From IMG/VR virus record IMGVR_UViG_3300025626_001148, positions 1 to 27,633 of that record: a stretch of DNA of 27,633 nt; one strand, 5' to 3'. Below the pieces are notes generated by a model. The model was given only the letters and a program-made list of their open reading frames with translations. It made no database searches and had not been told where the DNA came from. Shown here in pieces: positions 7,106 to 27,608 of this stretch. This DNA is from a virus. Position 1 is the first letter of the stretch. Every line of letters begins with the position of its first letter. Both the position numbers and the translations under genes were made by a program.

Positions 7106-7813
7106 ATGTTTGTCAAAGTAACAGAGATAGAACACTATACTGATACACTTTTTAGATTTCGTACAGAACGCCCTAACACGTTTAGGTTTACCGCAGGCGA
7201 ATTTACAATGATTGGAATGGGCGACAACGATATCATGAGAGCTTATAGTATTACTAGCGGACCGTACGACGATTACTTAGAATTTTATTCTATTAAAGTA
7301 CCTGATGGACCATTAACAAGTAGACTACAGCATATAAAAGTAGGTGACACCATTGAAGTAGGCGATAAATCTACTGGCACACTTACGCTTGCTAATTTAG
7401 AACTAAGTGGCAATCTTTGGTTATTAGCTACAGGTACAGGTATTGCTCCATTTATCAGTTTGTTACGCGATCCAGATTTGTATGATGCATTTGATAGAGT
7501 ACATGTAGTATGGAGTGTACGCCAGCAAGCAGAACTACTGTCTTATCATAGTTTTTTGCAAGAGCTAGACATTGACTATACACCCACAGTGACACAAGAT
7601 ATAGAATGGACAGGTTGTAAAGAACGAATAACTAAGATGATATCAGGCGGCAGCATACTAACAGGCTCGATACCTAAAAATGATAAAGTTATGATATGCG
7701 GAAGTATGCCTTTTAATAATGATGTAAAAGATTTACTCTCTCAAAATGGATGGCAGGAAGGTACTCGAAAACAAGCAGGAACATTTGTACAAGAAAAGGC
7801 ATTTGTATCATGA
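7106..7813 (+). CDS. Ferredoxin/flavodoxin-NADP+ reductase family protein
   Basis: This 235-residue flavoenzyme would move electrons between NADPH and ferredoxin or flavodoxin. The FAD-binding barrel shows RAYSITSGPYDDYLEFY (45-61), with the RxYS(I/T) motif, and GPLTSRL. The NADP domain shows LLATGTGIAPFISLLRD (106-122) and MICGSMPFNNDV (196-207). The C-terminus GTFVQEKAFVS resembles the FAD-covering tail of the bacterial FNR subclass. Length is slightly below the usual 250-260. It overlaps the cytidylyltransferase by 4 bases (ATGA). A link to the radical-SAM QueE encoded at 18795, which needs a reduced flavodoxin or ferredoxin, is an inference. Confidence 0.9.
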   Translation: MFVKVTEIEHYTDTLFRFRTERPNTFRFTAGEFTMIGMGDNDIMRAYSITSGPYDDYLEFYSIKVPDGPLTSRLQHIKVGDTIEVGDKSTGTLTLANLELSGNLWLLATGTGIAPFISLLRDPDLYDAFDRVHVVWSVRQQAELLSYHSFLQELDIDYTPTVTQDIEWTGCKERITKMISGGSILTGSIPKNDKVMICGSMPFNNDVKDLLSQNGWQEGTRKQAGTFVQEKAFVS

Positions 7814-8229
7814 GAGTAGGCTTCACCGCATCGACATTTGATTTACTTCACGCAGGACATGTACAAATGTTGCGTGAAGCTAAAGAACAGTGCGATTATT
7901 TAATTTGTGCTTTACAGATGGATCCTAGCGTTGATCGTGCTGAAAAAAACGCTCCTATACAAACTGTTGTAGAGCGTTACACACAACTCAAAGCAGTCAA
8001 GTATGTTGATGAGATTATCCCCTATGGTACAGAAAAAGATCTAGAAGATATCTTGACAATGTACAATATTCATGTTAGAATATTAGGAGAGGAGTATCGT
8101 GACAAAGACTTTACAGGTAAGGATATTTGTAGACGTCGCGATATAGACTTACATTTTAACAAGCGTGACCACAGATTTAGTTCAAGTGATTTGCGCAAGC
8201 GAGTAGCAGAAAGAGAAATTGATGTATAG
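7810..8229 (+). CDS. Cytidylyltransferase-type nucleotidyltransferase (TagD/RfaE-like)
   Basis: The ATG at 7810 overlaps the preceding TGA, making a 139-residue protein; an upstream in-frame start at 7750 would lie wholly inside the reductase gene. The N-terminus MRVGFTASTFDLLHAGHVQML carries the HxGH signature (His14 to His17) of nucleotidyltransferases. RFSSSDLRKRV near residues 121-131 corresponds to the second family motif (R-x-S-S-S-x-L). Length fits glycerol-3-phosphate cytidylyltransferase (about 130 residues) or the nucleotidyltransferase half of RfaE/HldE. It probably activates a sugar or polyol phosphate with CTP. It is grouped with HAD and epimerase genes that also suggest nucleotide-sugar metabolism. 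The exact substrate cannot be read. Confidence 0.88.
   Translation: MRVGFTASTFDLLHAGHVQMLREAKEQCDYLICALQMDPSVDRAEKNAPIQTVVERYTQLKAVKYVDEIIPYGTEKDLEDILTMYNIHVRILGEEYRDKDFTGKDICRRRDIDLHFNKRDHRFSSSDLRKRVAEREIDV
8053..8081 (+). promoter_or_regulatory. Possible internal sigma70 promoter
   Basis: TTGACA (8053-8058), a 17-base spacer and TAGAAT (8076-8081) lie inside the cytidylyltransferase gene, about 140 bases before the next small genes. The -35 is perfect and the -10 has five of six consensus bases. It is weaker than the other promoters in the window and may be chance. Confidence 0.35.
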
Positions 8230-8395
8230 AGCTAGCAGTATATTAATAGGATTTGGGGTTGGATTATTTACAGCAGGATTGATAATGATGATTGCAATAA
8301 TATTTCAACCTGATCACCCTTATGACGATTGTATGTTAAAATATACACAGCCTGAAGATATTATTGAATGTGTTTGGTTGTTGGAGAATTCGTGA
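8222..8395 (+). CDS. 57-residue single-pass membrane protein
   Basis: A short frame starts at ATG 8222, overlapping the cytidylyltransferase end by 8 bases, and stops with TGA 8393-8395. It encodes MYRASSILIGFGVGLFTAG followed by LIMMIAIIFQPD, a clear membrane helix at about residues 7-29, then a small acidic outer or inner domain with two cysteines. The stop overlaps the start of the next small gene (TGATG). No family is recognised. The hydrophobic helix and coupling at both ends support expression. Confidence 0.6.
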   Translation: MYRASSILIGFGVGLFTAGLIMMIAIIFQPDHPYDDCMLKYTQPEDIIECVWLLENS

Positions 8396-8553
8396 TGTGG
8401 ACACTTTGGATTGTTAGCACAGTAATTGGCAGTGCAGAACCTAAGGTAACTCATTATGCAGAGTTTGAGACTGCTATGAGTTGTCATATTGAACAAGCTG
8501 TACTAGAAACAATGTTTGAAAATAATGAGGTTGCATATTGCGATTATGAATAA
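8395..8553 (+). CDS. 52-residue protein with N-terminal hydrophobic segment
   Basis: I take the ATG at 8395, which overlaps the preceding TGA, rather than an upstream in-frame ATG at 8368. The product starts MWTLWIVSTVIGSAEPKVTHY and continues with an acidic region containing two cysteines, at about residues 29 and 49. The start looks like a weak signal peptide or membrane anchor. Its end overlaps the start of the HAD gene by 8 bases. I do not recognise the family. Confidence 0.55.
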   Translation: MWTLWIVSTVIGSAEPKVTHYAEFETAMSCHIEQAVLETMFENNEVAYCDYE

Positions 8554-9253
8554 ATTTATATTTGATGTAGACGGTACACTAACACCTAGCAGAGGTATTA
8601 TTGATTTAAAATTTAAAGCATTCTTTAATTCTTTTTGTTTAATGAATGACGTTTATCTAGTTACAGGCAGTGACAAAGCAAAGACGGTTGAACAGATTAG
8701 TGAGCCAACCTACAACTTATGTAAACGTGTTTATCAATGCAACGGAAATGACGTTTGGAAAGGCGCAACACACGTTCATACAAACGATTGGACATTACCA
8801 GAGTTTGCTGAATACTTTTTAAATGGTTGTTTGTACGAAAGTAGATTTAACTTGCGCACAGGTACTCATATTGAGAAGCGCCCCGGTATGGTAAACTTTA
8901 GTGTAGTAGGACGTGGTGCTGATGCAGAACAACGTCAAGAGTATGTAGCATACGACACATCTACAAACGAACGTAATACAATTGCAACAGCATTTAATAC
9001 AATGTTTCCTGACTTAGAAGCAAAAGTCGGTGGCGAAACAGGTATTGATATTAGCCCTAAAGGTTTTGATAAGAGTCAAATTATAAAAGACTTTGACAAA
9101 GAAGATACTACTTGGTTCTTTGGTGACGCTATCTATGAAGGCGGTAATGATCTTCCTATAGCAAATGTAGTAAAACATTTTAGAAAAGTAGACGGCTGGA
9201 AACAGACTATGGAATACCTGCAGATATTTCAAGAACAAGGTATAGCAGCATGA
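8546..9253 (+). CDS. HAD phosphatase/phosphomutase, eukaryotic-type phosphomannomutase-like
   Basis: The start is ATG 8546, giving MNKFIFDVDGTLTPSRG with the HAD nucleophile Asp7 and acid/base Asp9 (DxDGT). Later blocks, IEKRPGMVNFSVVGR, GGETGIDISPKGFDKSQII and WFFGDAIYEGGND, match the cap and C-terminal motifs of eukaryotic-type phosphomannomutases and HAD-IIB sugar phosphatases. Length (235) is near the 246 of PMM. It would convert or dephosphorylate a hexose phosphate, feeding nucleotide-sugar synthesis with the neighbouring cytidylyltransferase and epimerase. Mutase and phosphatase cannot be told apart from sequence alone. It overlaps the epimerase by 4 bases. Confidence 0.88.
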   Translation: MNKFIFDVDGTLTPSRGIIDLKFKAFFNSFCLMNDVYLVTGSDKAKTVEQISEPTYNLCKRVYQCNGNDVWKGATHVHTNDWTLPEFAEYFLNGCLYESRFNLRTGTHIEKRPGMVNFSVVGRGADAEQRQEYVAYDTSTNERNTIATAFNTMFPDLEAKVGGETGIDISPKGFDKSQIIKDFDKEDTTWFFGDAIYEGGNDLPIANVVKHFRKVDGWKQTMEYLQIFQEQGIAA

Positions 9254-10020
9254 ATATTCTATTAACGGGTCATAAAGGCTTTATTGGAACAGCGTTATTT
9301 AAACGTCTTATTAACAGAGGGCACAATGTATTTGGCGTTGACGTAAAGAATGGTCCTCAGTTTGATTTAGTTACGTATGATAGATGGCAAGACGACATTG
9401 ATCTTGTTATTCACCTAGCAGGCAAAAGTGGTGTACGTGAAAGTTTTACAGACCCTGCAGGATATTGGAACAACAACGTAGAAGCAACCCGTAGACTATT
9501 CGAACGCTATGAAGGTACACGTATACTGTATGCGAGCAGTTCGAGTGCTTACGAGCCCGATTTGAACCCTTATGCAGCTAGTAAGTTCATCATGGAAGAA
9601 CTTGCAGAACGCTACGGTACAGATCATGTGGGTATGCGTTTTCATACAGTGTATAGCGATAGTTGTCCTAGAGAAAATATGTTCTTTAACAAGTTACGCA
9701 ACGGCACACTAGAATACGTAACTAACCACTATAGAGATTTTATTCATCTAGAAGATGTACTAGATGCAATTGAAATATTAATAAAGGCTACACACGTTAA
9801 AGGTGTAGTTGATATTGGCACGGGGAATCCTGTTAGGATCCAAGACTTGGCTCCGGACTTACCGGTGCGTCTAAATACCCCAGGAGAGAGAAGTTGGACA
9901 TGTGCTAACACAGAAAAAATGAAGGCACTGGGCTTTAAACCTAAATACACGGTAGAAAAGTTCTTGACAAATGAAGACAAAGGCAATATAATAAACATAT
10001 TCAATGGAGAAACAGTATGA
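9250..10020 (+). CDS. NAD(P)-dependent epimerase/dehydratase (extended SDR)
   Basis: This 256-residue extended-SDR enzyme has the Rossmann motif GHKGFIG (7-13), DLVIHLAGKSGVRES (51-65), the serine region ASSSSAYE (95-102) and the catalytic YAASK (Tyr108, Lys112). It is shorter than typical UDP-glucose epimerases (about 310-340), with a reduced substrate domain. It would epimerise, dehydrate or reduce a nucleotide-linked sugar. The ATGA overlap places it with the HAD gene, and its last bases contain the promoter and Shine-Dalgarno sequence of the sliding clamp gene. The precise sugar cannot be inferred. Confidence 0.92.
   Translation: MNILLTGHKGFIGTALFKRLINRGHNVFGVDVKNGPQFDLVTYDRWQDDIDLVIHLAGKSGVRESFTDPAGYWNNNVEATRRLFERYEGTRILYASSSSAYEPDLNPYAASKFIMEELAERYGTDHVGMRFHTVYSDSCPRENMFFNKLRNGTLEYVTNHYRDFIHLEDVLDAIEILIKATHVKGVVDIGTGNPVRIQDLAPDLPVRLNTPGERSWTCANTEKMKALGFKPKYTVEKFLTNEDKGNIINIFNGETV
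9964..9992 (+). promoter_or_regulatory. Consensus sigma70 promoter for the clamp gene
   Basis: TTGACA (9964-9969), a 17-base spacer and TATAAT (9987-9992) make a perfect consensus promoter inside the 3' end of the epimerase gene. The start codon of gp45 is 25 bases after the -10, with GGAGA at 10006-10010. It lets the clamp and the DpdA-like gene be expressed separately from the sugar genes. Confidence 0.85.
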
Positions 10021-10760
10021 AAGATATTTTACAAGACGTAGTTGCACACACACATGCACTAGGATTTTTGCCACTAGTTAAAGTTACATCAGAAGATGGA
10101 ACAACTAGTGTAGACTCAATGGCAGAAGATCGCAGTGTTATTTTGAGTGCAATCACGCACACAGCAGTTAACGAGTTTGTAGGCACATTTGGTATGCCTA
10201 ACCTAGACAAACTAGCATTGCATTTGAAAAATCCAGAATATAAAACTGATGCAAAAATTGACGTAATTACCGCAGAACGTAACGGCGAAACTATGCCTAC
10301 GCACATTCACTTTGAAAATGCAGCTGGCGACTTCCAAAACGACTATCGCTTTATGAATAAAGCAATTATTGAAGAGAAGTTGAAAACTGTTAAGTTTAAA
10401 GGTGCGCAGTGGAATGTTACATTTCAACCTAGTATGGCAAGTATTGCACGTATGAAATTAATGAGTGCGGCACACAATGAAGAACCTACATTTAATGTTA
10501 CTACTAAAGCAACTGCTGGTGTTAGTGACTTAGTGTTTAGCTTTGGTGATGCAAGCACACACGCAGGTGAATTTGTATTTCAAAATGCAGTAGAAGGTAC
10601 ACTACAACACACTTGGAGTTGGCCTGTAGCGCAAGTACAGAGTGTGTTGAATTTAGACGGTGATGTTACTATGAGCATTTCAGATCAAGGTGCTATGATG
10701 ATTAGTGTAGACAGCGGCATGGCCAAATACGATTATATTCTCCCAGCGCAGAGCAAGTAA
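10017..10760 (+). CDS. gp45: Sliding clamp, T4 gp45 type
   Basis: This is the ring-shaped DNA polymerase processivity factor. Recognisable blocks are VAHTHALGFLPLVKVTS, AEDRSVILSA, FVGTFGMPNLDKLALHLKNP and the C-terminal KYDYILPAQSK. Length is 247 residues against 228 in T4, as is common in marine relatives. It should bind the C-terminal SSLFDFGD of the polymerase. It overlaps the epimerase by 4 bases, has its own consensus promoter at 9964, and is followed after one base by the TGT-like gene. T4 gp45 also couples replication to late transcription, so its expression timing matters. Confidence 0.93.
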   Translation: MKDILQDVVAHTHALGFLPLVKVTSEDGTTSVDSMAEDRSVILSAITHTAVNEFVGTFGMPNLDKLALHLKNPEYKTDAKIDVITAERNGETMPTHIHFENAAGDFQNDYRFMNKAIIEEKLKTVKFKGAQWNVTFQPSMASIARMKLMSAAHNEEPTFNVTTKATAGVSDLVFSFGDASTHAGEFVFQNAVEGTLQHTWSWPVAQVQSVLNLDGDVTMSISDQGAMMISVDSGMAKYDYILPAQSK

Positions 10761-10761
10761 T

Positions 10762-12318
10762 ATGGATGGATCGGCGGAGATCATGAATACAAATCTAACA
10801 GCACAACAAAGCGACTATGCACTGTTTTTGCCAGCGACATCTGGTTTTTACTCTGCCTTTATCGGGTATCAAAGAAATCGATACCCGTATATCGAACCTT
10901 CTAGACTGCCTAAAAACTTTACAAACGATGTAGAAAGTATTAATTACTTAGATCCTAAAAGTCCACTATTGTATTATAAATGGTGTTTATACTCCGCAGG
11001 ACATGCTAATCTCGATTTAAACAAGCAAGATGACCGAGAAGATATGTTCCGTAAACGTCCACGCAATGGTGATAGTTGGGTATTAGGCGACTCGGGTGGA
11101 TTCCAGATTGGTAAAGGCAAATGGCCCGCTGATTGGAAAGACCCTAACTGTCCTGCTGCTATGAAAAAACGCAAACAAGTGTTAACTTGGATGGACAGTT
11201 TAATGGATTACGGCATGTGCTTGGATATTCCGGCATGGGTTGCTCGATCACCAGAAGGACAAAAAGCTACAGGCATTAGCACATACGAAGAAGCATGCAA
11301 GGCTACTGAAATTAATAATGAATACTTTATTCAGAATAGAAATGGCAATTGTAAATTCTTAAACGTACTGCAAGGTGAGAATCATGCGGATGCCGACGAT
11401 TGGTACAATCGTATGAAGAAATTCTGTGATCCAAAAGTATATCCAGACAATCACTTCAATGGTTGGGGAATGGGTGGACAGAACATGTGTGACGTACACT
11501 TGGTTCTTAAACGTCTAGTTGCATTACGCTTCGATGGATTGCTAGAAGAAGGTTTACATGATTGGATGCACTTCTTGGGTACAAGCAAGCTAGAGTGGGC
11601 GTTGGTTCTAACAGATATTCAACGTGCTGTACGCAAGTATCACAATCCTAAATTTACTATTAGCTTTGATTGTGCTAGTCCGTTTCTTGCAACTGCAAAC
11701 GGTCAGGTCTACACCGAACTTGAAATAGAAGACAGAGGCAAGTGGTCATATCGGATGGCAGCAGCATTAGATGACAAGAAATATGCACAAGATACTAGAT
11801 TGTTTAGAGATGCAGTGATACAAGACGGTCATCATAAAAACTTTTCTAATAGTCCAGTTATGAATGATGTATTAACTAAAGATGTATGCATTTATGCGCC
11901 GGGCGATTTAAATAGAATTGGCAAGGAAGGTAGAACTTCTTGGGATAGTTTTAGTTATGCAATTCTAATGGCACACAATGTATGGATGCATTTAAACGCT
12001 GTACAAGAAGCAAATCGTCAATATGACGAAGGCAAAGTTCCTGCAATGCTAGTGAATGAAAAATTTGATCAACTCTACAGTAGAGATGTTATCAATGCCG
12101 TATTTGCTGCTGATACTAGAGAAGAAGCAAATAAAATAATTGAAGATCACAGTAGATTGTGGATGCAAATTCCAGGTACACGTGGTGCAGTAGGTAAGAA
12201 AACAGTTAATGCTAGTACACACTTTAATGCTCTGTTTGATATATCAGAACCAGAAGTGATAGAAGACGAAGAAATTTTGGACGAAACTAAGTTGGAGAAT
12301 TTGGATGAGCAACTTTGA
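10762..12318 (+). CDS. dpdA: tRNA-guanine-transglycosylase-like protein, probable DpdA (DNA 7-deazaguanine insertion)
   Basis: This 518-residue protein carries TGT-superfamily signatures in order: LGDSGGFQIG (catalytic Asp110), LNVLQGE (200-206), GWGMGGQ (234-240), and SFDCASPFLATANGQVYT (301-318), whose Asp303 aligns with the TGT nucleophile in FDCxxPTRxARNG. A late AHNVWMHLNAVQEANRQ resembles the TGT HN helix. No CxCxxC zinc motif is present, unlike bacterial tRNA enzymes. Phage DpdA proteins exchange guanine in DNA for a 7-deazaguanine. FolE, QueE and a QueD-like protein in this window support that role over tRNA modification. Start: ATG 10762, one base after the clamp stop; ATG 10783 is an alternative. 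The C-terminus is very acidic. Confidence 0.82.
   Translation: MDGSAEIMNTNLTAQQSDYALFLPATSGFYSAFIGYQRNRYPYIEPSRLPKNFTNDVESINYLDPKSPLLYYKWCLYSAGHANLDLNKQDDREDMFRKRPRNGDSWVLGDSGGFQIGKGKWPADWKDPNCPAAMKKRKQVLTWMDSLMDYGMCLDIPAWVARSPEGQKATGISTYEEACKATEINNEYFIQNRNGNCKFLNVLQGENHADADDWYNRMKKFCDPKVYPDNHFNGWGMGGQNMCDVHLVLKRLVALRFDGLLEEGLHDWMHFLGTSKLEWALVLTDIQRAVRKYHNPKFTISFDCASPFLATANGQVYTELEIEDRGKWSYRMAAALDDKKYAQDTRLFRDAVIQDGHHKNFSNSPVMNDVLTKDVCIYAPGDLNRIGKEGRTSWDSFSYAILMAHNVWMHLNAVQEANRQYDEGKVPAMLVNEKFDQLYSRDVINAVFAADTREEANKIIEDHSRLWMQIPGTRGAVGKKTVNASTHFNALFDISEPEVIEDEEILDETKLENLDEQL
10863..10887 (+). other. Perfect 8-bp hairpin near the start of dpdA
   Basis: CGGGTATC (10863-10870) and GATACCCG (10880-10887) can pair around a 9-base loop. 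No T-run follows, so it is not a terminator. It lies about 100 bases into the gene and could affect translation or mRNA stability, or may be chance. Confidence 0.3.
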
Positions 12319-12514
12319 TAAAACTAAAGATAAACTCTTAGCACATTATGACGAACTAAAGCGTAAGCATAGAGAACTTGACAACGAGATAGAATCAATG
12401 TATAATAATTCATATGTTACCGAAGAAATTCGACGTATGAAAACTATGAAACTTTATCTCAAAGATGAAATGCATCGTATTAACGCATACTTGGTACAAA
12501 AAGGTTTAGAATGA
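12305..12514 (+). CDS. Small coiled-coil protein (DUF465-like)
   Basis: This 69-residue all-helical protein has the pattern LLAHYDELKRKHRELDNEI, then TEEIRRMKTMKLYLKDEM, close to the DUF465/YdcH pattern (H-x-x-L-x-x-x-I, then L-K-x-x-K-L-x-L-K-D-E-I). Function of that family is unknown to me. It overlaps the DpdA-like gene by 14 bases. A consensus promoter at 12378 lies within it and would serve downstream genes. Confidence 0.75.
   Translation: MSNFDKTKDKLLAHYDELKRKHRELDNEIESMYNNSYVTEEIRRMKTMKLYLKDEMHRINAYLVQKGLE
12378..12406 (+). promoter_or_regulatory. Consensus sigma70 promoter inside the DUF465-like gene
   Basis: TTGACA (12378-12383), a 17-base spacer and TATAAT (12401-12406) give both hexamers and spacing at consensus. 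It would drive the small gene at 12511, the Gfo/Idh/MocA-type gene and the MDR gene. Confidence 0.75.
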
Positions 12515-12636
12515 AACAAGATCCTACTATCAATGAACTTAGAAAAATATTTAGAGATGCAGGTCTCGAATACTATGTTAAAAAACAAAAAGGCAGTATT
12601 GTAAAAGTTCACTTTATGGTTAAGGAAGAAGAATGA
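12511..12636 (+). CDS. 41-residue hypothetical protein
   Basis: A short frame starts with an ATGA overlap with the previous gene and ends with an ATGA overlap with the next. It encodes MKQDPTINELRKIFRDAG, then a basic, beta-prone segment ending VKVHFMVKEEE. Overlaps at both ends and helix-plus-strand composition support it as a real gene. No family recognised. Confidence 0.6.
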   Translation: MKQDPTINELRKIFRDAGLEYYVKKQKGSIVKVHFMVKEEE

Positions 12637-13505
12637 AAAGTCTTATAGTAGGCATGGGTATTGGCGAACTGTACAAATCAGTTCTAACACAGCTAGACTT
12701 TGACGTTGTTACTGTGGATCCAGTTAAAAATGCTGACTTTAAAAATATTGTTGATGCGCTAGAAGTACATCAACATTTTGATACAGTTAATATTTGTACT
12801 CCAAACTTTACACACGAAGCATTAACTTCGGTACTTGCACCACACAGTGATATTATCTTTGTAGAAAAGCCTGGCTTTAAGAATTCCACCGAATGGGAGT
12901 TTGTACACAATCAGTTTCCCGACACACGTATTATGATGGTGAAGAATAATATGTGGAGAGACAACATCTCCGAAATGCAAATGCTTGCCGCAGACAGTAT
13001 ACAAATTGACATCAAATGGATTAGAAAAAATTGCATTCCTAATCCAGGTAGTTGGTTTACAAACAAAGAGTTAGCATATGGTGGAGTAAGTAGAGATTTG
13101 GTTCCGCATTTGCTAAGTTTATATATTGCTATGAATCCTCTTTGGGAAGATACATCAGCTGATGTTAGTAATAGTCAGCAGAATTGGGAATTATCTAAAA
13201 TTGAAAGTACTGAGTATGGAGTTGTAGATTACAATGGCACATACAATGTTGATGACTATTCTCATCTAAGATATGAAAACAAATGGCATATTCAAGCAAA
13301 TTGGAGAGACTTGACTAAAGAGGAAAGTTGTGTTACATTTACTAAACGTAATGAACTATCGAAAACTATTGACTTAGGATGGTGTCCAGAAGATGCTTAT
13401 CTAAATATGATAAAAACAGCGGTTGCAAACAAAGACAACGATATCTTTTGGCAAGATCAATTTAAACAAGATTTTTGGATTCACAAACAGATTGAAACAT
13501 TATGA
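12633..13505 (+). CDS. Gfo/Idh/MocA-family oxidoreductase
   Basis: This 290-residue NAD(P)-dependent sugar oxidoreductase has a Rossmann start (MKSLIVGMGIGELYKSVL) and the family motifs VNICTPNFTHEAL (52-64) and IIFVEKPGF (74-82). The EKP lysine is the usual catalytic residue. The glycine motif is GxGxG-like but shortened. The C-terminal domain is less typical and short. It would oxidise or reduce a sugar or nucleotide-sugar. It overlaps the MDR gene by 4 bases. Together with the epimerase, HAD and glycosyltransferase genes it points to a phage-encoded sugar pathway whose product is not evident. Confidence 0.85.
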   Translation: MKSLIVGMGIGELYKSVLTQLDFDVVTVDPVKNADFKNIVDALEVHQHFDTVNICTPNFTHEALTSVLAPHSDIIFVEKPGFKNSTEWEFVHNQFPDTRIMMVKNNMWRDNISEMQMLAADSIQIDIKWIRKNCIPNPGSWFTNKELAYGGVSRDLVPHLLSLYIAMNPLWEDTSADVSNSQQNWELSKIESTEYGVVDYNGTYNVDDYSHLRYENKWHIQANWRDLTKEESCVTFTKRNELSKTIDLGWCPEDAYLNMIKTAVANKDNDIFWQDQFKQDFWIHKQIETL

Positions 13506-14401
13506 AAGTTAGACTATTACACACCGACGGCAACGGCAGTTTTAAAGAAGTAAGTTGGGACAAACCTGATATATCAGATACTGACATCGAAGTCAAGGCA
13601 CTAAAAACTGGTGTGTGCCGTAGCGATTTAGAAATGATGATAGGTAACTTTGGTCCTTTGCCTTTGCAAATGCAAGGACATGAAGGCTTGGGTGTTGTTA
13701 CAAAAGTAGGTGATCTAATTGACAATGCAAAAGTAGGCGACTATGTAGCCACTAGAGGCGAGCCTGCATATGCAGATTATTATAACTGTAGACACAACGA
13801 ATATGTAGTTGTGCCTAGCGATGATGCCAAGTATATTCTCGAACCTGTTGCATGTGGTATTAATGTAGTAATGCAACCCTTTGAAGCAATTAAAAATCGT
13901 AGTGGTGCAGATAAAAGATGTCTTATTTTAGGTAGTGGATTTCTTGCACAAGTTGCATACAAAAGTTTAGAACTACTTGATCTTGAGTTTGAAACTGTTG
14001 ATGTTGTAGGGAACTACAATCGAGAGCTGTGGGGCGACACTTTACAAAGTGAGCCAGTCGGAAGTTACGATGTTGTTGTAGATTTAAGTTCAAGAATCGA
14101 CGTGTTGGATGCTATTGAATACACCAACGAAGCATTGCTAGTATTAGGAGTGCAAAAACAATTAACAAGCGACTATGGCAACTTACTTTGGAAAGCGTGT
14201 ACTATTGTTTTTCCTAGTCCGAGAGCAGAATGTTTTATTGATGCAATGGTGTGTGCTGAAAAATGGATCACTAACAACTCATTAGTTGTTGACAACTTCT
14301 GGACTAGAGCGTATAATAGAAGTATGGAATGGCAACAAGCATTTAATGATGGACTAAATCGTCCTAATGGCTACAGTAGAGGTTATATCAAATGGGACTA
14401 A
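13502..14401 (+). CDS. Zinc-type medium-chain dehydrogenase (MDR/alcohol dehydrogenase-like)
   Basis: This 299-residue MDR protein keeps the catalytic zinc motifs KTGVCRSDLEMM (Cys39, Asp42) and GHEGLGVVTKVG (His60, Glu61), then KVGDYVAT. The nucleotide-binding part has CLILGSGFLAQVAYK near residue 140. The structural-zinc lobe with four cysteines is absent, and the total length is below the usual 340, so the coenzyme or C-terminal region is compact. A sugar or polyol dehydrogenase fits the neighbouring Gfo/Idh/MocA gene. Its 3' end holds a promoter at 14289 and overlaps the next gene by 10 bases. Confidence 0.87.
   Translation: MKVRLLHTDGNGSFKEVSWDKPDISDTDIEVKALKTGVCRSDLEMMIGNFGPLPLQMQGHEGLGVVTKVGDLIDNAKVGDYVATRGEPAYADYYNCRHNEYVVVPSDDAKYILEPVACGINVVMQPFEAIKNRSGADKRCLILGSGFLAQVAYKSLELLDLEFETVDVVGNYNRELWGDTLQSEPVGSYDVVVDLSSRIDVLDAIEYTNEALLVLGVQKQLTSDYGNLLWKACTIVFPSPRAECFIDAMVCAEKWITNNSLVVDNFWTRAYNRSMEWQQAFNDGLNRPNGYSRGYIKWD
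14289..14317 (+). promoter_or_regulatory. Consensus sigma70 promoter in 3' end of the MDR gene
   Basis: TTGACA (14289-14294), a 17-base spacer and TATAAT (14312-14317) match consensus fully. The next start codon is at 14392, leaving a leader of about 70 bases. Confidence 0.75.
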
Positions 14402-18105: not shown

Positions 18106-18795
18106 ATGACAAAAAAACTATACGAAAAAATTACCGAACAACTGCAAGCAGACGGCAAAAGATATTGGGCTGGCGATAACATCTCAGACTATGTTGATAC
18201 CGAAACAAAATATCTTCTCATTGACGAAGCATCAGAAGCATTTGAAACTGTACTTGACACACTGCTGATTGATCGACACAATGATCCTAACTCAAAAGGT
18301 ACAGCACGTCGACTGGCTAAAATGTACTTTAATGAGATTATGGCAGGACGTTACGACTATCGTCCAGATGCAACTGCATTTCCTAATGATAGTGCCGATC
18401 GCTATGAAGGTATGCTTGTGGTACGCTCAGAGCTAAAGAGCATGTGTTCGCATCATCACCAGCCAGTCACAGGCGTAGCATATATTGGTATTATTGCAGC
18501 AGAAAAACTTATTGGTCTTAGCAAGTATACACGTATTGCACAGTGGTGCGCTCGACGTGGCACACTTCAAGAAGAACTTGCAAATGATATTGCACGTGAA
18601 ATTAAAGCAGCAACTGGTGCAGAACATCTAGGTGTTTACATTCAAGCAACACACGGGTGTTGTGAGAATCGTGGCATTATGGCAGCTAGCAGTCTTACAC
18701 AAACTACTGTACTACGTGGTGCATTTAAAGATGATGTAGGCACAAAGAAAGAGTTCTTTGACAACATCAAACTACAACAGGAGTTTAGCTGCTAA
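18106..18795 (+). CDS. folE: GTP cyclohydrolase I
   Basis: FolE opens the GTP ring to give 7,8-dihydroneopterin triphosphate, the first step of both folate and 7-deazaguanine synthesis. In this 229-residue protein the zinc and active-site block is MCSHHHQPVTGVAYIGI (Cys114, His117), followed by LIGLSKYTRIAQWCARRGTLQEEL (135-158) and GVYIQATHGCCENRGI (176-191, with Cys185 the likely third zinc ligand). These match the family blocks CEHHxxPxxG, GLSKxxRxxxxxARRxQxQExL and HxCxxxRG. A CGGAG lies upstream of the ATG. It begins an operon with queE (TAATG overlap) and metK. The context favours deazaguanine over folate synthesis. Confidence 0.95.
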   Translation: MTKKLYEKITEQLQADGKRYWAGDNISDYVDTETKYLLIDEASEAFETVLDTLLIDRHNDPNSKGTARRLAKMYFNEIMAGRYDYRPDATAFPNDSADRYEGMLVVRSELKSMCSHHHQPVTGVAYIGIIAAEKLIGLSKYTRIAQWCARRGTLQEELANDIAREIKAATGAEHLGVYIQATHGCCENRGIMAASSLTQTTVLRGAFKDDVGTKKEFFDNIKLQQEFSC

Positions 18796-19751
18796 TGGAG
18801 GCACCAGTATTTGAAAAAGGTTATCCGTCGTATGAAGCAGTTAACAGAAAGCCAGCAATGAAACTAAGATATAGTGAAGCATTTTATAGCGTACAAGGCG
18901 AAGGCAAGTTTGTAGGAGTACCTAGTGTATTCCTACGCACATTCGGTTGTAACTTCCGTTGCATGAACTTTGGTACAGATGAAAAACGTAATCGTACAGA
19001 GTTACACGCAGATGGTATTAGATATAATGCAGAAGTAAAAGATTTAATTGATGCAAAGGTACACGAAACAACCGAAAAATTTGAAGACTTGCCTATTATA
19101 CACACAGGCTGCGATACATACGCAAGTATCTATCCCGAGTTTAAACATTTTAATAGACAAGCAACAGTTGAAGAAGTAGTTGAGCATCTGTTATCACTCA
19201 CACCTAACGGTAAGTGGGTACAAGAAAATGGACAGGATGTACATCTTATCCTCACAGGCGGAGAGCCGTTGTTAGCGTGGCAACGACTTTACGTAGAACT
19301 ATTCGAACATCCACGCATGAGAGACTTAAAAAATGTTACATTTGAAACAAACACTACACAACCTTTACACAACGATTTCTATAACTATCTTAACACTCAA
19401 GACAGATTTACAGTCACTTGGAGTTGTTCCCCAAAACTTAGCGTTAGCGGAGAACCTTGGGAAACTGCTATATTGCCTGATGTTGCTCGCGAGTATAGCC
19501 TTGTTGACGGTAGCGACATGTATCTCAAGTTTGTTGTCGCTACTCAAGGTGACTTTGATGAAGTCGAAAGAGCTGTGGAGGCTTATAGAAATGCCGGGGT
19601 ACAATGTCCGGTATACCTTATGCCGCTGGGCGGACGCAGTGAAGAATACGCCCTTAATGTTAAAGACGTGGCAGAAGCGTGTATGGCCAAAGGATGGAGA
19701 TTCACTCCCCGACTCCACATTAGCCTATTCGGAAATGCCTGGGGCACTTGA
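18795..19751 (+). CDS. queE: 7-carboxy-7-deazaguanine synthase, radical SAM (variant cluster motif)
   Basis: QueE uses SAM, Mg2+ and a reduced [4Fe-4S] cluster to make 7-carboxy-7-deazaguanine from carboxytetrahydropterin. This 318-residue protein shows FYSVQGEGKFVGVPSVFLR (QGEG at 34-37), GCNFRC (Cys52, Cys56), TGCDTYAS (Cys106), LTGGEPLL (153-160), FETNTT (183-188) and SPKLS (212-216). In standard QueE the third cysteine follows the second by two residues (CxxCDT). Here about 49 residues intervene, giving CX3CX49C, with Phe59 at the usual place. It is longer than bacterial QueE (about 210-250). Start ATG 18795 overlaps the folE stop; an ATG at 18858 is an alternative. Confidence 0.9.
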   Translation: MEAPVFEKGYPSYEAVNRKPAMKLRYSEAFYSVQGEGKFVGVPSVFLRTFGCNFRCMNFGTDEKRNRTELHADGIRYNAEVKDLIDAKVHETTEKFEDLPIIHTGCDTYASIYPEFKHFNRQATVEEVVEHLLSLTPNGKWVQENGQDVHLILTGGEPLLAWQRLYVELFEHPRMRDLKNVTFETNTTQPLHNDFYNYLNTQDRFTVTWSCSPKLSVSGEPWETAILPDVAREYSLVDGSDMYLKFVVATQGDFDEVERAVEAYRNAGVQCPVYLMPLGGRSEEYALNVKDVAEACMAKGWRFTPRLHISLFGNAWGT

Positions 19752-19842
19752 TCAAGTGCAAAAAGAAAAACTTGATAAGGCAATGCAAGCACCTATTAAC
19801 AAAAACTTAGACGAAGAACTAAGACAAAAAGGACTAATATGA
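19735..19842 (+). CDS. Possible 35-residue protein between queE and metK
   Basis: An open frame from ATG 19735 overlaps the end of queE by 17 bases and ends in an ATGA overlap with metK. It encodes MPGALDQVQKEKLDKAMQAP and a charged helical tail ending LDEELRQKGLI. It fills the 87-base gap exactly and would couple queE to metK translation. There is no strong ribosome binding site. A longer upstream extension of this frame lies wholly inside queE and is probably not used. Confidence 0.45.
   Translation: MPGALDQVQKEKLDKAMQAPINKNLDEELRQKGLI
19744..19759. repeat. 16-bp perfect palindrome over the queE stop codon
   Basis: GCACTTGATCAAGTGC reads the same on both strands and contains the queE TGA (19749-19751). 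As RNA it can form a 6-bp stem with a GATC loop, followed by an A-rich rather than U-rich run. It is not a terminator; a binding site or mRNA element is possible. Confidence 0.4.
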
Positions 19843-20927
19843 ATCACATTTTTACAAGCGAATCAGTAAGTGACGGACACCCAGATAAGGTAGCAGATCA
19901 AATATCTGATGCGCTTGTTGATGCTGGATTAGCCGCAGGCGATACAACAACAAGAGTAGCAGTTGAAACACTAGTAACTACCAATATGGTTACTCTAGCA
20001 GGAGAAGTTAAGAACTTTAATGTAACTAGAGATGAAGTAGAAAACATTGTTCGAAACAAAGTTAAAGAAATTGGCTACGATCAGAATGGATTTTCTTGGC
20101 ACAAGTTAAAGTTATATAATGAAATACATGAACAAAGTGCAGACATTGCACTAGGTACAGACGACTTTGGTGCAGGAGATCAAGGACTTATGTTTGGTTA
20201 TGCTTGCAATCATACCGATAGTATGATGCCTGCACCTATTCATTACAGTCACAAGATACTAGAAAATTTAAAAGCAAAGCGTGGTAATGTATTAGGTCCT
20301 GATGCTAAGAGTCAAGTAAGTGTCGAGTACAATGGCGCAAGACGTGAAGGTGTTATCAAACGTATTGATCAAATTGTGGTTAGCACACAGCACACAGAAG
20401 GTTGTATAGAAGAAGCAAGACATTTGTGTAAACTTGCAGCAATGGAAGAACTAGGAAACTTAATTGATGAAAACACTGTATGGCATCTTAATCCTACTGG
20501 TAACTTTGTTATTGGTGGTCCTGATGGTGATAGCGGTCTTACTGGACGTAAAATTATTGTGGACACTTATGGTGGTTTTGCTCCTCATGGTGGCGGTGCG
20601 TTTAGTGGCAAAGATCCAACAAAAGTCGACCGAAGTGCAGCCTACATGGCACGATGGCTTGCCAAAAATGTAGTAGCAGATGAAATGGCAGACTGGTGTA
20701 ACATACAACTAAGTTACGCTATTGGTGTTAAGCAACCTACAAGCATTTATGTTGATTCAAATGGACACAATCGCAGTATTGAAAAGTTTATTCGAAACGA
20801 GATTGATCTAAGTCCAAAAGGAATCATTGACAGATTTGACTTATTCAACTATACTAATTATAGTAACAATTGTACTTACGGACACTTTGGTGACAAAGAT
20901 GTGCCTTGGGAAAGGATAGGATGGTAA
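19839..20927 (+). CDS. metK: S-adenosylmethionine synthetase
   Basis: MetK makes SAM from ATP and methionine. This 362-residue protein has all main family blocks: SDGHPDKVADQISDA (11-25), DFGAGDQGLMFG (109-120), IGGPDGDSGLTGRKIIVDTYGG (225-246) and HGGGAFSGKDPTKVDRSAAY (250-269). Length is slightly under the usual 380-400. It shares the folE-queE operon, and SAM is the cosubstrate of QueE, so a supply role is likely. Phage DNA methylation is another use, but no methyltransferase is seen here. It appears intact and full length. Its 3' end contains a promoter for the next gene. Confidence 0.97.
   Translation: MNHIFTSESVSDGHPDKVADQISDALVDAGLAAGDTTTRVAVETLVTTNMVTLAGEVKNFNVTRDEVENIVRNKVKEIGYDQNGFSWHKLKLYNEIHEQSADIALGTDDFGAGDQGLMFGYACNHTDSMMPAPIHYSHKILENLKAKRGNVLGPDAKSQVSVEYNGARREGVIKRIDQIVVSTQHTEGCIEEARHLCKLAAMEELGNLIDENTVWHLNPTGNFVIGGPDGDSGLTGRKIIVDTYGGFAPHGGGAFSGKDPTKVDRSAAYMARWLAKNVVADEMADWCNIQLSYAIGVKQPTSIYVDSNGHNRSIEKFIRNEIDLSPKGIIDRFDLFNYTNYSNNCTYGHFGDKDVPWERIGW
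20827..20855 (+). promoter_or_regulatory. Sigma70 promoter in the 3' end of metK
   Basis: TTGACA (20827-20832), a 17-base spacer and TATACT (20850-20855). It lies about 75 bases before the gene at 20929 and allows expression separate from the folE operon. Confidence 0.7.
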
Positions 20928-23133: not shown

Positions 23134-23422
23134 GAGCAGACCAAAGCCAACAGTTATATTAGAAAACATTAACAATAAGACTTATAAGAGCGAACAAGTA
23201 CTCGAAGCTGAGGCAATATGGGCAGTGTTTTATCAAAGCAAGCCTTTTAATTTAAAAAGTGCAAACGCTCTTACAAACTATCCAGGACCTAAGTATAAGA
23301 AAGTTAGTTTTTCAAACCCAGGACACGCACACAATCTTGCTAAAAAATTAAACGAAATGTTTAAGTGCGAAGATTTTGTAGTTTATAAACTTACTACTGG
23401 CGAGTTAGTTACAGAAGAATGA
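23132..23422 (+). CDS. Conserved marine phage protein under hairpin control
   Basis: This 96-residue protein starts MSRPKPTVILENINNKTYKS and contains LEAEAIWAVFYQSKPFNLKS, YPGPKYKKVSFSNPGHAHNL and a short C-terminal domain. I recognise it as very conserved among marine T4-like phages, without known function. It is basic and of mixed alpha/beta character. A perfect 9-bp hairpin covers its start codon, so its translation is probably timed. It overlaps the next gene by 4 bases. Confidence 0.8.
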   Translation: MSRPKPTVILENINNKTYKSEQVLEAEAIWAVFYQSKPFNLKSANALTNYPGPKYKKVSFSNPGHAHNLAKKLNEMFKCEDFVVYKLTTGELVTEE

Positions 23423-23802
23423 ACTGGAAAGAAGTATATACAAAGCTCTTTCTAAAAGAACTAGGTAAGAGCACCAATAATGTTACTATAGCAGAATACA
23501 TGCCGATATGGTGGAAGAACAATAGAGAAAAGGACGAAGGTGGCCTGCGTCTTACAGAAGCTGGGTTTGATATATTAACAGAAATAGATTTAGCTACTTA
23601 TGATATTCCGTATCCAAGAGATGTTCCTTTATCTACTCAAGTGATCATACACCTTGACAAGTTTATTGACTGTCCTTACTATCTTACAAATAGAAGTATC
23701 ATAGTAACGAACGAAAAGAAAGCAGTTGAGCTTACTCTTTTTAGTGGTGATTTACGCAAATACGGCCTAACAAAAGCAATTACTAGACAAAATAAATCCT
23801 AA
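23419..23802 (+). CDS. Conserved marine phage protein
   Basis: This 127-residue protein begins in an ATGA overlap with the previous gene. It includes IAEYMPIWWKNNREKDEGGL, RLTEAGFDILTEIDL, STQVIIHLDKFIDCPYYLTN and ELTLFSGDLRKYGLTKAI. I know this as a conserved hypothetical of T4-like marine phages that is often next to the preceding gene. No catalytic motif seen. The same hairpin and late-like promoter would control both genes. A new promoter follows. Confidence 0.78.
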   Translation: MNWKEVYTKLFLKELGKSTNNVTIAEYMPIWWKNNREKDEGGLRLTEAGFDILTEIDLATYDIPYPRDVPLSTQVIIHLDKFIDCPYYLTNRSIIVTNEKKAVELTLFSGDLRKYGLTKAITRQNKS

Positions 23803-23840: not shown

Positions 23841-23868
23841 TTGACAAATCCTGTAGATATGTTATTAT
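23841..23868 (+). promoter_or_regulatory. Sigma70 promoter of the moxR-like gene
   Basis: TTGACA (23841-23846), a 16-base spacer and TATTAT (23863-23868). The leader before ATG 23920 includes TTTAAATA (23879-23886), seven of eight bases of the T4 late octamer, and AGAGGGA as ribosome binding site. Confidence 0.75.
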
Positions 23869-23919: not shown

Positions 23920-25005
23920 ATGGATACTTCGACTCGCACAGTTAGCCCAAACGGCGCAAAAAACAGCATTAAACATGCGCTTAAAAAGCAGCGTCCTATT
24001 TTCTTATGGGGTCCTCCAGGTATTGGTAAGAGTGACATTGTACGTCAAGTTAACGACACCTTTGCAAACTCGCATTTGATTGACATTCGTTTGAGCCTTT
24101 GGGAGCCTACAGACATTAAAGGCATTCCTTACTTTGACAGCAACTCAGGTACAATGGTATGGGGTGCGCCTAACGAACTTCCTTCAGAAGAGTTTGCAGC
24201 ACAGTATGATCATATTACACTGTTCTTAGATGAGATGAACTCGGCAGCGCCTAGTGTACAGGCAGCAGCATATCAGCTTATTCTTAACCGTCGTGTAGGC
24301 ACTTACAAGTTACCAGACAACGTTTCTGTTGTTGCAGCAGGTAACCGTGAAGCTGATAAAGGTGTTACGTATCGTATGCCTGCTCCGTTGGCTAACCGCT
24401 TTATTCACTTAGAACTTGCTGTTAACTTTGACGACTGGTTCAACTGGGCAGTTGCTAACAATGAGCACACTGATGTTGTAGGCTACTTGACTTTTGCTAA
24501 GAAAGACCTGTATGACTTTGATCCTAAGAGCTCATCACGTTCGTTTGCAACGCCTCGTTCGTGGTCATTTGTATCAGAATTGCTAGAAGACGAGTTAGAC
24601 GAAAACACCACTACAGATCTTGTAGCAGGTGCAGTAGGCGAAGGCTTGGCTGTCAAGTTTATGGCACACCGCAAGGTAGCTGCTAACATGCCTAACCCTA
24701 CTGATATTTTAACAGGCAAAGTAAAAGAGTTGAAAACTAAAGAAATTAGTGCTATGTACTCTTTAACAGTGTCTTTGTGCTACGAGCTTAAAGAATCCTG
24801 TGACAACGGCGATAAGAAGTTTGATGACAAAGTTAACAACTTCCTGCGCTTTTCAATGGATAACTTTGACACTGAGCTTGTTGTAATGGGCATTAAGCTT
24901 GCACTAACACAGTACGGCTTGCCAATTGATCCAGATGAAGTAGAGTGCTTTGATGAGTTCCACGACCGTTATGGCAAATATATTAAGGCTGCAAACGCTG
25001 CTTAA
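23920..25005 (+). CDS. MoxR-type AAA+ ATPase
   Basis: This 361-residue AAA+ ATPase has Walker A GPPGIGKS (31-38), Walker B LFLDEMN (101-107, Asp104, Glu105), the sensor-1 region VVAAGNRE (137-144, Asn142) and an arginine-finger region PAPLANRF (Arg160). The MoxR group works with VWA-domain partners to mature, load metal into, or remodel protein complexes, and the next gene encodes such a partner. It has its own promoter at 23841 and ends at a strong terminator at 25014. Codons are somewhat richer in G/C at third positions than the neighbours by eye. The target is unknown. A T4 gene of this type is not known to me. Confidence 0.92.
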   Translation: MDTSTRTVSPNGAKNSIKHALKKQRPIFLWGPPGIGKSDIVRQVNDTFANSHLIDIRLSLWEPTDIKGIPYFDSNSGTMVWGAPNELPSEEFAAQYDHITLFLDEMNSAAPSVQAAAYQLILNRRVGTYKLPDNVSVVAAGNREADKGVTYRMPAPLANRFIHLELAVNFDDWFNWAVANNEHTDVVGYLTFAKKDLYDFDPKSSSRSFATPRSWSFVSELLEDELDENTTTDLVAGAVGEGLAVKFMAHRKVAANMPNPTDILTGKVKELKTKEISAMYSLTVSLCYELKESCDNGDKKFDDKVNNFLRFSMDNFDTELVVMGIKLALTQYGLPIDPDEVECFDEFHDRYGKYIKAANAA

Positions 25006-25013
25006 CGAACTAA

Positions 25014-25047
25014 AAAGGACAAGTTCTTTTGAGCTTGTCCTTTCTTT
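25014..25047 (+). terminator. Intrinsic terminator after the moxR-like gene
   Basis: AAAGGACAAG (25014-25023) pairs perfectly with CTTGTCCTTT (25034-25043) around a 10-base loop, followed by CTTTC. The stem has T-rich 3' flanks and lies just after the stop at 25005, before the next promoter. It separates the two genes of the pair into distinct transcripts. Confidence 0.85.
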
Positions 25048-25062
25048 CGACAAATATAATGG

Positions 25063-25090
25063 TTGACATATATACTATAGATGCTATAAT
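25063..25090 (+). promoter_or_regulatory. Sigma70 promoter of the VWA/metallopeptidase-like gene
   Basis: TTGACA (25063-25068), a 16-base spacer and TATAAT (25085-25090), 30 bases before the ATG at 25121. AAAGGGCA serves as ribosome binding site. Confidence 0.85.
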
Positions 25091-25120
25091 ATATGTATAA
25101 GTTAGATAAAGGGCAATGAC

Positions 25121-26431
25121 ATGAGCACTAAAGATACAGCAAGTAAACTAAAAAACTTTACTCCAGATCCGGATATTACACCCGAAGCATTAGAAACAAT
25201 GCGTGTAGAAGTTATGGATCGTATTATTACTGCACGTATTGGCTTGCTACTGCGTCATCCGTTTTTTGGCAACATGGCTACACGCTTAAAAATTATTGCG
25301 GCGGATGACTGGCTTCCTACTGCGGCTGTAGATGGTCGCAACCTTTATTACAACACACAATTCTTTAATGCAATGAACAATAAAGAAATTGAGTTTGTTG
25401 TTGCACACGAAATCTTGCATATGGTATTTGATCACTTAGGACGGCGTGAAGATCGCAATCCTATGATTTACAACATCAGCGCAGACTACATTGTAAACAA
25501 TACACTTGTGCGTGATCGCATTGGTACTATTCCAAGCATTGTTGATTGCTATCAAGACTTTAAGTACGAAGGTTGGACTAGCGAAGAAGTATATGATGAT
25601 GTATATGAAGAGGCTAAAAAGAACGGCGAAGAATACTTAAAACAACTTGGCGAAATGTTAGACGAACACCTTGACATGGACGAAGGTGACGAAGGCAGTT
25701 CAGACGGTGATGTAGACGAAGACAGCAACGGTAATGCTACAAGCAAATCTAAGCCTAAGTACTCTAAAGAAGACATGAAGCAGATCAAAGATGAGATCAA
25801 AGAGAATATGATCTCTGCGGCACAGAGTGCTGGTGCTGGCAATGTTCCAGGTGCTGTACAGCGCATTATCAAAGAGCTTACTGAACCTAAGATGAACTGG
25901 CGTGAAATTATCCGTCAGTCTGTACAAAGTTCTATTAGAAGTGACTACACATTTAGTCGTCCAAGTCGCAAAGGTCAGATGAGCGGTGCTATTTTACCTA
26001 GCATGGACTTTGAAGATACTATTGATATTGCAGTTTGTATAGACATGAGTGGTTCGATTGGCGAAGTACAAGGCAAAGATTTCTTAGGTGAAATCAAAGG
26101 TATTATGGAAGAGTTTCCAGACTATAACATTAAAGTATGGTGCTTTGATACTAGAGTATACAACGAAGAAGACTTTGAAGCTAACGACGGCAAAGACTTG
26201 CTGGACTACCAATTAATGGGTGGCGGCGGCACTGACTTTATGGCTAACTGGACATATATGAAAGAACAAGATTATGTTCCTAAGAAACTTATTATGTTTA
26301 CAGATGGTTATGCATGGGATAGCTGGGGTGATCCAGACTACTGTGATACAGTGTTTGTTATTCACTCAAACCGTGATAAGAATTTAGAAGGACCGTTTGG
26401 TACCTCGGTACATTACGATGCAGCGGCATGA
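25121..26431 (+). CDS. HExxH metallopeptidase-like plus VWA domain protein (DUF2201 type)
   Basis: This 436-residue protein joins two domains. Residues 25-150 form a putative metallopeptidase domain with AHEILHMVFDH (His96, Glu97, His100, and His105 nearby). Residues 178-215 are a very acidic, disordered linker. Residues 300-436 form a VWA-like domain with a complete MIDAS: DMSGS (Asp308, Ser310, Ser312), GGGGTDF (Thr371) and FTDG (Asp395). This architecture is known in bacteria next to MoxR ATPases, as here. It likely acts with the ATPase to process or remodel a protein target. It has its own promoter and a 4-base overlap with the next gene. Whether it cleaves protein is unproven. Confidence 0.9.
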   Translation: MSTKDTASKLKNFTPDPDITPEALETMRVEVMDRIITARIGLLLRHPFFGNMATRLKIIAADDWLPTAAVDGRNLYYNTQFFNAMNNKEIEFVVAHEILHMVFDHLGRREDRNPMIYNISADYIVNNTLVRDRIGTIPSIVDCYQDFKYEGWTSEEVYDDVYEEAKKNGEEYLKQLGEMLDEHLDMDEGDEGSSDGDVDEDSNGNATSKSKPKYSKEDMKQIKDEIKENMISAAQSAGAGNVPGAVQRIIKELTEPKMNWREIIRQSVQSSIRSDYTFSRPSRKGQMSGAILPSMDFEDTIDIAVCIDMSGSIGEVQGKDFLGEIKGIMEEFPDYNIKVWCFDTRVYNEEDFEANDGKDLLDYQLMGGGGTDFMANWTYMKEQDYVPKKLIMFTDGYAWDSWGDPDYCDTVFVIHSNRDKNLEGPFGTSVHYDAAA

Positions 26432-26746: not shown

Positions 26747-26980
26747 ATGAGCGAAGAAACTAATGTCGAAGCAACTGCAACTACAGAAGCACCGACATCC
26801 GAAGCACAGGGTCCTGATCTAACTGTGCAAGATTTGCAAGCATTAAAAAGCATCATTGATGTTGCAAGTCAGCGAGGCGCATTTAAGCCTAATGAAATGA
26901 TGACTGTAGGACAAACTTATGGTAAACTAGAAACATTTTTAGCAGCCGTTGCACAACAGCAGCCTGCACAAGGAGAATAA
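26747..26980 (+). CDS. Small conserved marine phage protein
   Basis: This 77-residue protein has a disordered Thr/Glu/Ala-rich start and a conserved helical core, LTVQDLQALKSIIDVASQRG and FKPNEMMTVGQTYGKLETFL, ending in a Gln-rich tail. I recognise the core as highly conserved across marine T4-like phages, with no known function. It has a consensus AAGGAGAT ribosome binding site like dsbA and gp43, suggesting high expression. It sits one base before the next gene. Confidence 0.82.
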   Translation: MSEETNVEATATTEAPTSEAQGPDLTVQDLQALKSIIDVASQRGAFKPNEMMTVGQTYGKLETFLAAVAQQQPAQGE

Positions 26981-26981
26981 T

Positions 26982-27608
26982 ATGTTAAAGCACGTAGGAC
27001 GGATGACACATAACAATCGTAGAGTAATTGTTGCATACAAAGTACTCCCTGGAGATCCAGAGAATTGTGTTGTAGTAACAACTGAAAACTTAGAAGCAGG
27101 TGATCACGATGCACTAATCAAACTTGTCGAATCTCCCGCAGGACAAGAAGCAGATGATTTAGCAACTGTTATGATGCGTACACAACTATCAGACGGTAGT
27201 AACATGCTTGCACGGTTCCACACAACTGGTAAGATGGTTAAAGTAAAGACTTCTGAGGTTGATATGATTCCTAATCAGAATACCTCTATTAAACTAAGCG
27301 AACTTAATGAAGCTATTGCACAACAAAAAGGTATAACTGTTGCTGACTTAGCAGTTAAAGGCCCAGATGGTAAAACTGTGCAATCATCAAACGCACCATC
27401 AATGACTGCTAGTGAAATGGCTGCGGCGGCACCTAATGTAGCACCTGTTGCAGACGATGGTGTAATTACTGACGAAGAACTTGCTAAAAAATTCCGCAGT
27501 GATGCAGATCGTCTAAGCAAAGAAGCAGCCGAACTTCGTAGACAAGCTGAAGAATTAGTTCCAACTAAAAAGAAAGCATCTACAAAAAAGACTGCGCAAA
27601 GTGCCTAA
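26982..27608 (+). CDS. Conserved marine phage protein
   Basis: I choose ATG 26982 with AAGGAG ahead; an upstream in-frame ATG at 26949 lies within the previous gene. The 208-residue product starts MLKHVGRMTHNNRRVIVAYK, has a compact N-terminal domain with LESPAGQEADDLATVMM-like helices, a Ser/Ala-rich middle, and a C-terminal coiled-coil-like helix (ELAKKFRSDADRLSKEAAEL) with a lysine-rich tail. The N-terminal part is familiar from marine T4-like phages near late genes. Function unknown. Confidence 0.8.
   Translation: MLKHVGRMTHNNRRVIVAYKVLPGDPENCVVVTTENLEAGDHDALIKLVESPAGQEADDLATVMMRTQLSDGSNMLARFHTTGKMVKVKTSEVDMIPNQNTSIKLSELNEAIAQQKGITVADLAVKGPDGKTVQSSNAPSMTASEMAAAAPNVAPVADDGVITDEELAKKFRSDADRLSKEAAELRRQAEELVPTKKKASTKKTAQSA

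Follow-up and report, generated by a model that had tools for sequence, protein, structure and literature searches.

Which task a MoxR-type AAA+ ATPase and a metallopeptidase-like VWA partner perform for a phage, and when in infection they are made, is the question raised by two neighbouring genes on a 27.6-kb virus record (hereafter the window, meaning the whole stretch of DNA that was analysed). The window belongs to a large marine virus of bacteria and is probably a fragment of a jumbo phage, because its DNA polymerase has its closest counterparts in the jumbo phages Phosso (49.5%) and Atu_ph07 (45%) and contigs bearing relatives of the gene pair reach 364 kb. No phage record matched the window in a Megablast search. 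At 7106–14401, within a phage DNA-metabolism region, several nucleotide-sugar and redox genes stand in a row (ferredoxin-reductase-like, cytidylyltransferase, phosphomannomutase-like, epimerase, oxidoreductases). FolE (GTP cyclohydrolase I) and QueE genes at 18106–19751, and a gene at 10762–12318 that by eye resembles a tRNA-guanine-transglycosylase/DpdA-type protein without a Pfam hit, are hinting at 7-deazaguanine DNA modification. The product of 19839–20927 (phrog_1569, unnamed) resembles by eye an S-adenosylmethionine synthetase; no more than 7 of the 48 related contigs have the gene in place, so that it comes and goes in the lineage.

The first-pass annotation assigned the two genes to a MoxR AAA+ ATPase and a DUF2201-type protein; both open reading frames were recovered at the same positions, and the profile matches agree. 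The ATPase (23920–25005, plus strand) gave a full-length match to the family profile PHROG 1297, named ‘ATPase’ (residues 4–356, 7.1e-99, 332 bits), and weak matches to Pfam AAA families. Its Walker A (GPPGIGKS, aa 31–38, 24010–24033), Walker B (LFLDE, aa 101–105), sensor 1 and both conserved arginines (R160 and R213) are intact. Across 19 isolates, G34, K37, E105, N142, R160 and R213 are invariant, D104 is found in 95%, and the Walker A residues G31, G36 and S38 are kept in 84–95%. The protein is predicted to form an AAA+ ring. The monomer model was poor (pLDDT 60) and served for superfamily placement only; the solved folds nearest to this low-confidence model include CHU_0153, NorQ and RavA. 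A sequence comparison with solved structures returned nothing at E ≤ 0.01. The pair shares with E. coli RavA-ViaA the combination of a MoxR AAA+ ring and a VWA partner, but membership of that system was rejected, as the ATPase has no sequence match to RavA at that threshold and shares with it the AAA+ fold alone. ViaA is not known to carry an HExxH motif. Assignment to a defence system was also discarded; the sole PADLOC hit was to DolB, weak (E 6e-4) and confined to the AAA+ part.

CbbQO and NorQD likewise combine a MoxR hexamer with a MIDAS-bearing VWA adaptor, but they serve bacterial metabolic targets, and neither is known to have a metallopeptidase domain. By analogy with CobS/CobT, NorQD and CoxDE, the phage pair might insert a metal or cofactor and so mature a metalloenzyme that the phage needs, which would suit the presence of NorQ among the nearest folds of the low-confidence model and a weak match to PHROG 249 (‘porphyrin biosynthesis’). 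This match scored 24 bits, that to phrog_1297 332 bits, and a CobS/CobT cobaltochelatase was dismissed on that comparison; moreover, no single metalloenzyme gene consistently adjoins the pair across the clades examined. We consider such a role very improbable.

The partner (25121–26431, plus strand) matched phrog_1314 (8e-113) and two Pfam domains above their cut-offs, DUF2201_N (4e-42) and the DUF2201 VWA domain (2.5e-15), and is a fusion of an HExxH metallopeptidase-like part with a VWA part. Both motifs that had been described as full, HExxH and MIDAS, are present and intact. The MIDAS opens with DMSGS (aa 308–312, 26042–26056) and is completed by T371 (26231–26233) and D395 (26303–26305); D308, S310, S312, T371 and D395 are invariant in 115/115 homologues. 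The HExxH reads HEILH (aa 96–100, 25406–25420) and is followed by H105, D122 and N126, which together with H96 and H100 are invariant in 21 isolates. The first-pass annotation had named loss of catalytic residues from most homologues as grounds for abandoning its reading. When this was checked, the catalytic glutamate E97 proved to be kept in 114/115 homologues (20/21 isolates and 94/94 environmental sequences), the lone exception being Atu_ph07 (L159, partner at 9971–11260), in which HQILH replaces it. Peptidase activity may therefore not always be needed. The candidate zinc ligands are H96 and H100 of the HExxH plus either H105 or D122. In the AlphaFold2 model of the partner (mean pLDDT 76, about 90 in the N-terminal part), the C-terminal VWA part matches solved integrin-type I domains, a MIDAS-bearing class. 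The N-terminal part has a weak sequence match to the solved HExxH protein MJ1213 (E 0.006–0.012), which fits a small zinc peptidase, and the conserved HExxH suggests a clipping activity as well.

In PHROG 1314 and many RefSeq phage entries, the DUF2201 metallopeptidase-VWA protein goes by the name of ‘HNH endonuclease’ or ‘homing endonuclease’. Pfam showed no HNH family in the partner at E ≤ 0.1, and its domains are metallopeptidase-like and VWA, so an identity as HNH endonuclease was ruled out; the label has apparently been copied from entry to entry by mistake.

The pair as such is already known, with matches in 762 and 804 phage records. It corresponds to N4 gp24/gp25 (PHROG 1297/1314), core genes of N4-like phages (Schitoviridae), with which it shares gene order, motifs and 32% and 25% identity, respectively, over the aligned part. 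The window differs in having separate host-type promoters and an insulating hairpin; in the N4 gap, neither such a terminator nor a sigma70-type promoter was seen. The same domain architecture occurs in group 2.2 jumbo phages, for which a 2021 paper (PMC7824862) describes a MoxR-vWA pair with an N-terminal metallopeptidase. Description of the genes as bacterial protein-remodelling machinery holds for MoxR-VWA pairs generally; the DUF2201 metallopeptidase type is named in few of the openly licensed papers searched. Bacterial DUF2201 was found in Thermotoga maritima and Deinobacterium chartae. Among openly licensed publications, no interaction, ATPase or peptidase measurements on such phage pairs were found, and a term search of the CRISPRi-ART paper for essentiality found no mention of the pair.

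The proposal that each gene has its own sigma70 promoter was examined in 98 distinct intergenic gaps of environmental relatives, the window included, counting matches of at least 10/12. In the window, the ATPase gene is preceded by TTGACA-16-TATTAT (23841–23868, plus strand, 11/12) and the partner gene by TTGACA-16-TATAAT with an extended -10 (25063–25090, plus strand, 12/12). Single sites of this kind prove little, since the scan by itself detected 21 promoter-like sites in the region and 19.1 in shuffles. Conservation settles the matter: an ATPase promoter is present upstream in 86/98 relatives (5.95 expected) and a partner promoter in the gap in 92/98 (3.15 expected), which rules out chance promoters. 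An extended -10 was observed for 71/92 partner promoters (TGn) and 62/86 ATPase promoters.

The strong terminator claimed between the genes is also conserved. It consists of a 13-bp stem with a UUUU loop (25014–25043) and a T-rich tail that takes the element to 25048 on the plus strand, and the 65-nt region folds at -21.6 kcal/mol. The hairpin was found in 89/98 gaps. In an 18-sequence alignment, compensatory changes were present at 9/13 pairs with 95.7% of cells paired, and this signal vanished when the stem partners were slid by one column. Terminator-like hairpins are sparse overall, at 2/39 junctions in the window, of which this is one, and 3/122 in G001, a 159-kb relative; the terminator between the two genes was absent from the listing of an automated scan of the window.

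A controlled subunit ratio, as put forward in the first-pass annotation, is plausible, known relatives working as a 6:1 complex or occurring at about 4:1. An excess of the ATPase is not supported, because the partner promoter is nearer to consensus than that of the ATPase in 68/98 relatives and the opposite is true in 10/98. For the same reason, a ratio set by the terminator alone is not supported for the lineage of the window.

A hairpin terminator directly after the ATPase stop codon was also found in 12/12 more distant isolates checked, with unrelated sequences. These were 11 jumbo phages (121Q, GAP32, RaK2, XaC1, Munch, Vibrio 2.275, Phosso, PA5oct, Atu_ph07, G and SCTP-2) and CR3 (Vequintavirinae); the terminator of Munch had also been annotated by its depositors. 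Background frequencies were 11–26% of junctions in the eight isolates for which these were counted (RaK2, Munch, Vibrio 2.275, Phosso, PA5oct, Atu_ph07, G and CR3). In PA5oct, G, Vibrio 2.275 and SCTP-2 the terminator keeps with the ATPase gene despite kilobases of sequence before the partner. The same test found none after the ATPase gene of Presley, PA26, a Rhizobium phage and a Moorella phage. Among relatives with a 44–70% identical partner, the terminator was present at 8/11 loci having both genes and absent at L176, L198 and L199. The gap at L198 is 14 nt long, and separate transcription is thus not universal. In several distant jumbo phages no sigma70-type promoter was found in the short gap, so that the partner there may depend on read-through. 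No report of this promoter-terminator layout was found in openly licensed papers. What is new is the conserved early-type promoter of each gene with the intervening terminator, across many phages.

The timing of expression bears most directly on what the pair is for. In G001 (L151–L158), coding-strand sigma70-type sites matching at least 11/12 lie at 1–12 kb and 134–157 kb, and the pair, at 10.8–13.3 kb, has such sites around it. The stretch from 14 to 134 kb, which contains the major capsid gene at 90 kb, has only two, both on the minus strand. This structural stretch instead holds 12/14 copies of ATAAATAC, typically 26–47 nt upstream of the genes that carry it; the motif resembles the T4 late promoter, so that this marine lineage has a late motif of the T4 type. 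At the pair it was found in 0/98 gaps and upstream regions. Sigma70-type sites also crowd near the pair in G002 and G003, where the partition is less clean than in G001, and the distant 364-kb G011 shows no clear separation between the two kinds of motif. With a near-consensus host-type promoter and no late-type motif, the pair resembles early or middle (sigma70-type) phage genes, and its homologues in N4 are middle genes (PMC4193335). Taken together, the promoter class, the missing late motif and the N4 precedent favour early or middle expression.

This timing has to be weighed against a role in virion assembly, which the available part of PMC7824862 proposes for the jumbo-phage pair without discussing its regulation. 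The ATPase and partner would then act as a chaperone and processing peptidase that fold or clip structural proteins, by analogy with p618/p892 of the archaeal two-tailed virus, and would simply be stocked early. Early promoters are compatible with this, as certain phage assembly chaperones are early products. Virion structural genes (neck, tail) lie directly upstream of the pair in 121Q, RaK2, GAP32 and XaC1, four virion-protein genes are found near the gp24/gp25 homologues in roseophage RPP1 (PMC4193335), and the PA5oct ATPase record bears an ‘ESI-MS/MS’ note. The promoter class is nevertheless not late, the N4 pair is middle-expressed, and several clades hold the pair among DNA-metabolism genes: DNA or nucleotide genes are its neighbours in the window, Phosso, Atu_ph07, PA5oct and N4. 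On balance, we regard assembly as a possible but rather doubtful explanation.

The two genes tend to travel together. In 18 isolates the distance between them is at most about 5 kb, and they stand side by side in nearly all of 133 environmental loci, some of which share a contig. In rV5_ev168 a few kb separate them and they are read from opposite strands, and in VLCpiM5a no annotated ATPase gene occurs within 4 kb on either side of the partner. A scan of genome contigs for bacterial relatives recovered only four contigs from metagenome-assembled genomes (L196; L197, i.e. PBPT01000016.1, 335 kb; L198; L199), which are probably jumbo-phage contigs binned with bacteria. The marine metagenome-assembled genomes that hold contigs with the gene block are labelled Neomarinimicrobiota, Puniceispirillum, Rickettsiales and Gammaproteobacteria.

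Three small genes on the plus strand flank the pair in the window. Immediately 5' of the ATPase gene lies o127 (23419–23802, phrog_15638), in place in 102/103 related contigs; downstream follow o77 (26747–26980, phrog_13789; 80/81) and o212 (26970–27608, phrog_15894; 72/72). Weak homologues of o127 were found just upstream of the ATPase gene in 121Q, RaK2, XaC1 and Munch, homologues of o212 just downstream of the pair in 121Q, RaK2, Munch, GAP32 and XaC1 (E 4e-9 to 9e-15), and homologues of o77 near the pair in PA5oct and Atu_ph07. The flanking of the pair by o127 and o212 in several jumbo-phage clades suggests a larger conserved module.

Our preferred explanation, to which we give about an even chance, is an early or middle MoxR-VWA machine that remodels and clips a host or phage complex and whose subunits are dosed independently. 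The ATPase would form the AAA+ ring. Its partner would dock on the ring and recruit one specific protein through the MIDAS metal ion, a proposal supported by the conserved gene pairing and by CbbQO, where one VWA protein binds the AAA+ hexamer and MIDAS mutants lose substrate sensing (PMC4660213). The zinc-peptidase-like HExxH domain, given its intact catalytic residues, would clip what the ring pulls or distorts. Judging from the promoter classes in relatives, host polymerase would transcribe each gene from a sigma70-type promoter of its own in the early or middle phase of infection; the terminator would insulate the genes from each other, and the late promoters of the virion genes would not be used. 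As this non-late transcription suggests, the machine would most likely act before or while the genome is replicated, remodelling a host or phage complex or subjecting it to limited proteolysis. The first candidates for adaptor or substrate are o212 and o127.

A narrower form of this explanation, in which a single host protein with a defence or housekeeping role is unfolded by the ring and degraded by the peptidase, would draw on the early-type promoters, the intact HExxH and the spread over phages with many different hosts (762 records). A core position in N4-like phages and such diverse hosts fit a conserved target better than fast-changing defences, and we consider a counter-defence or takeover protease of this kind distinctly unlikely. 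A bolder form of the remodelling and clipping machine, itself unlikely, would be an ATP-driven, MIDAS-targeted early protease with separately transcribed subunits in an ancient terminator-bearing layout, acting on a single conserved complex that it would remodel in numerous large phages unrelated to one another. Phages would then possess a general takeover machine, for which o212 or o127 would serve as adaptor or substrate.

These two genes are core to N4-like phages, occur in many jumbo phages and are often misnamed in databases. Their conserved early-type promoters and terminator yield a prediction of timing that fits badly with a purely late role in virion assembly. The layout suggests that the machine acts early in infection, rather than only when particles are built.
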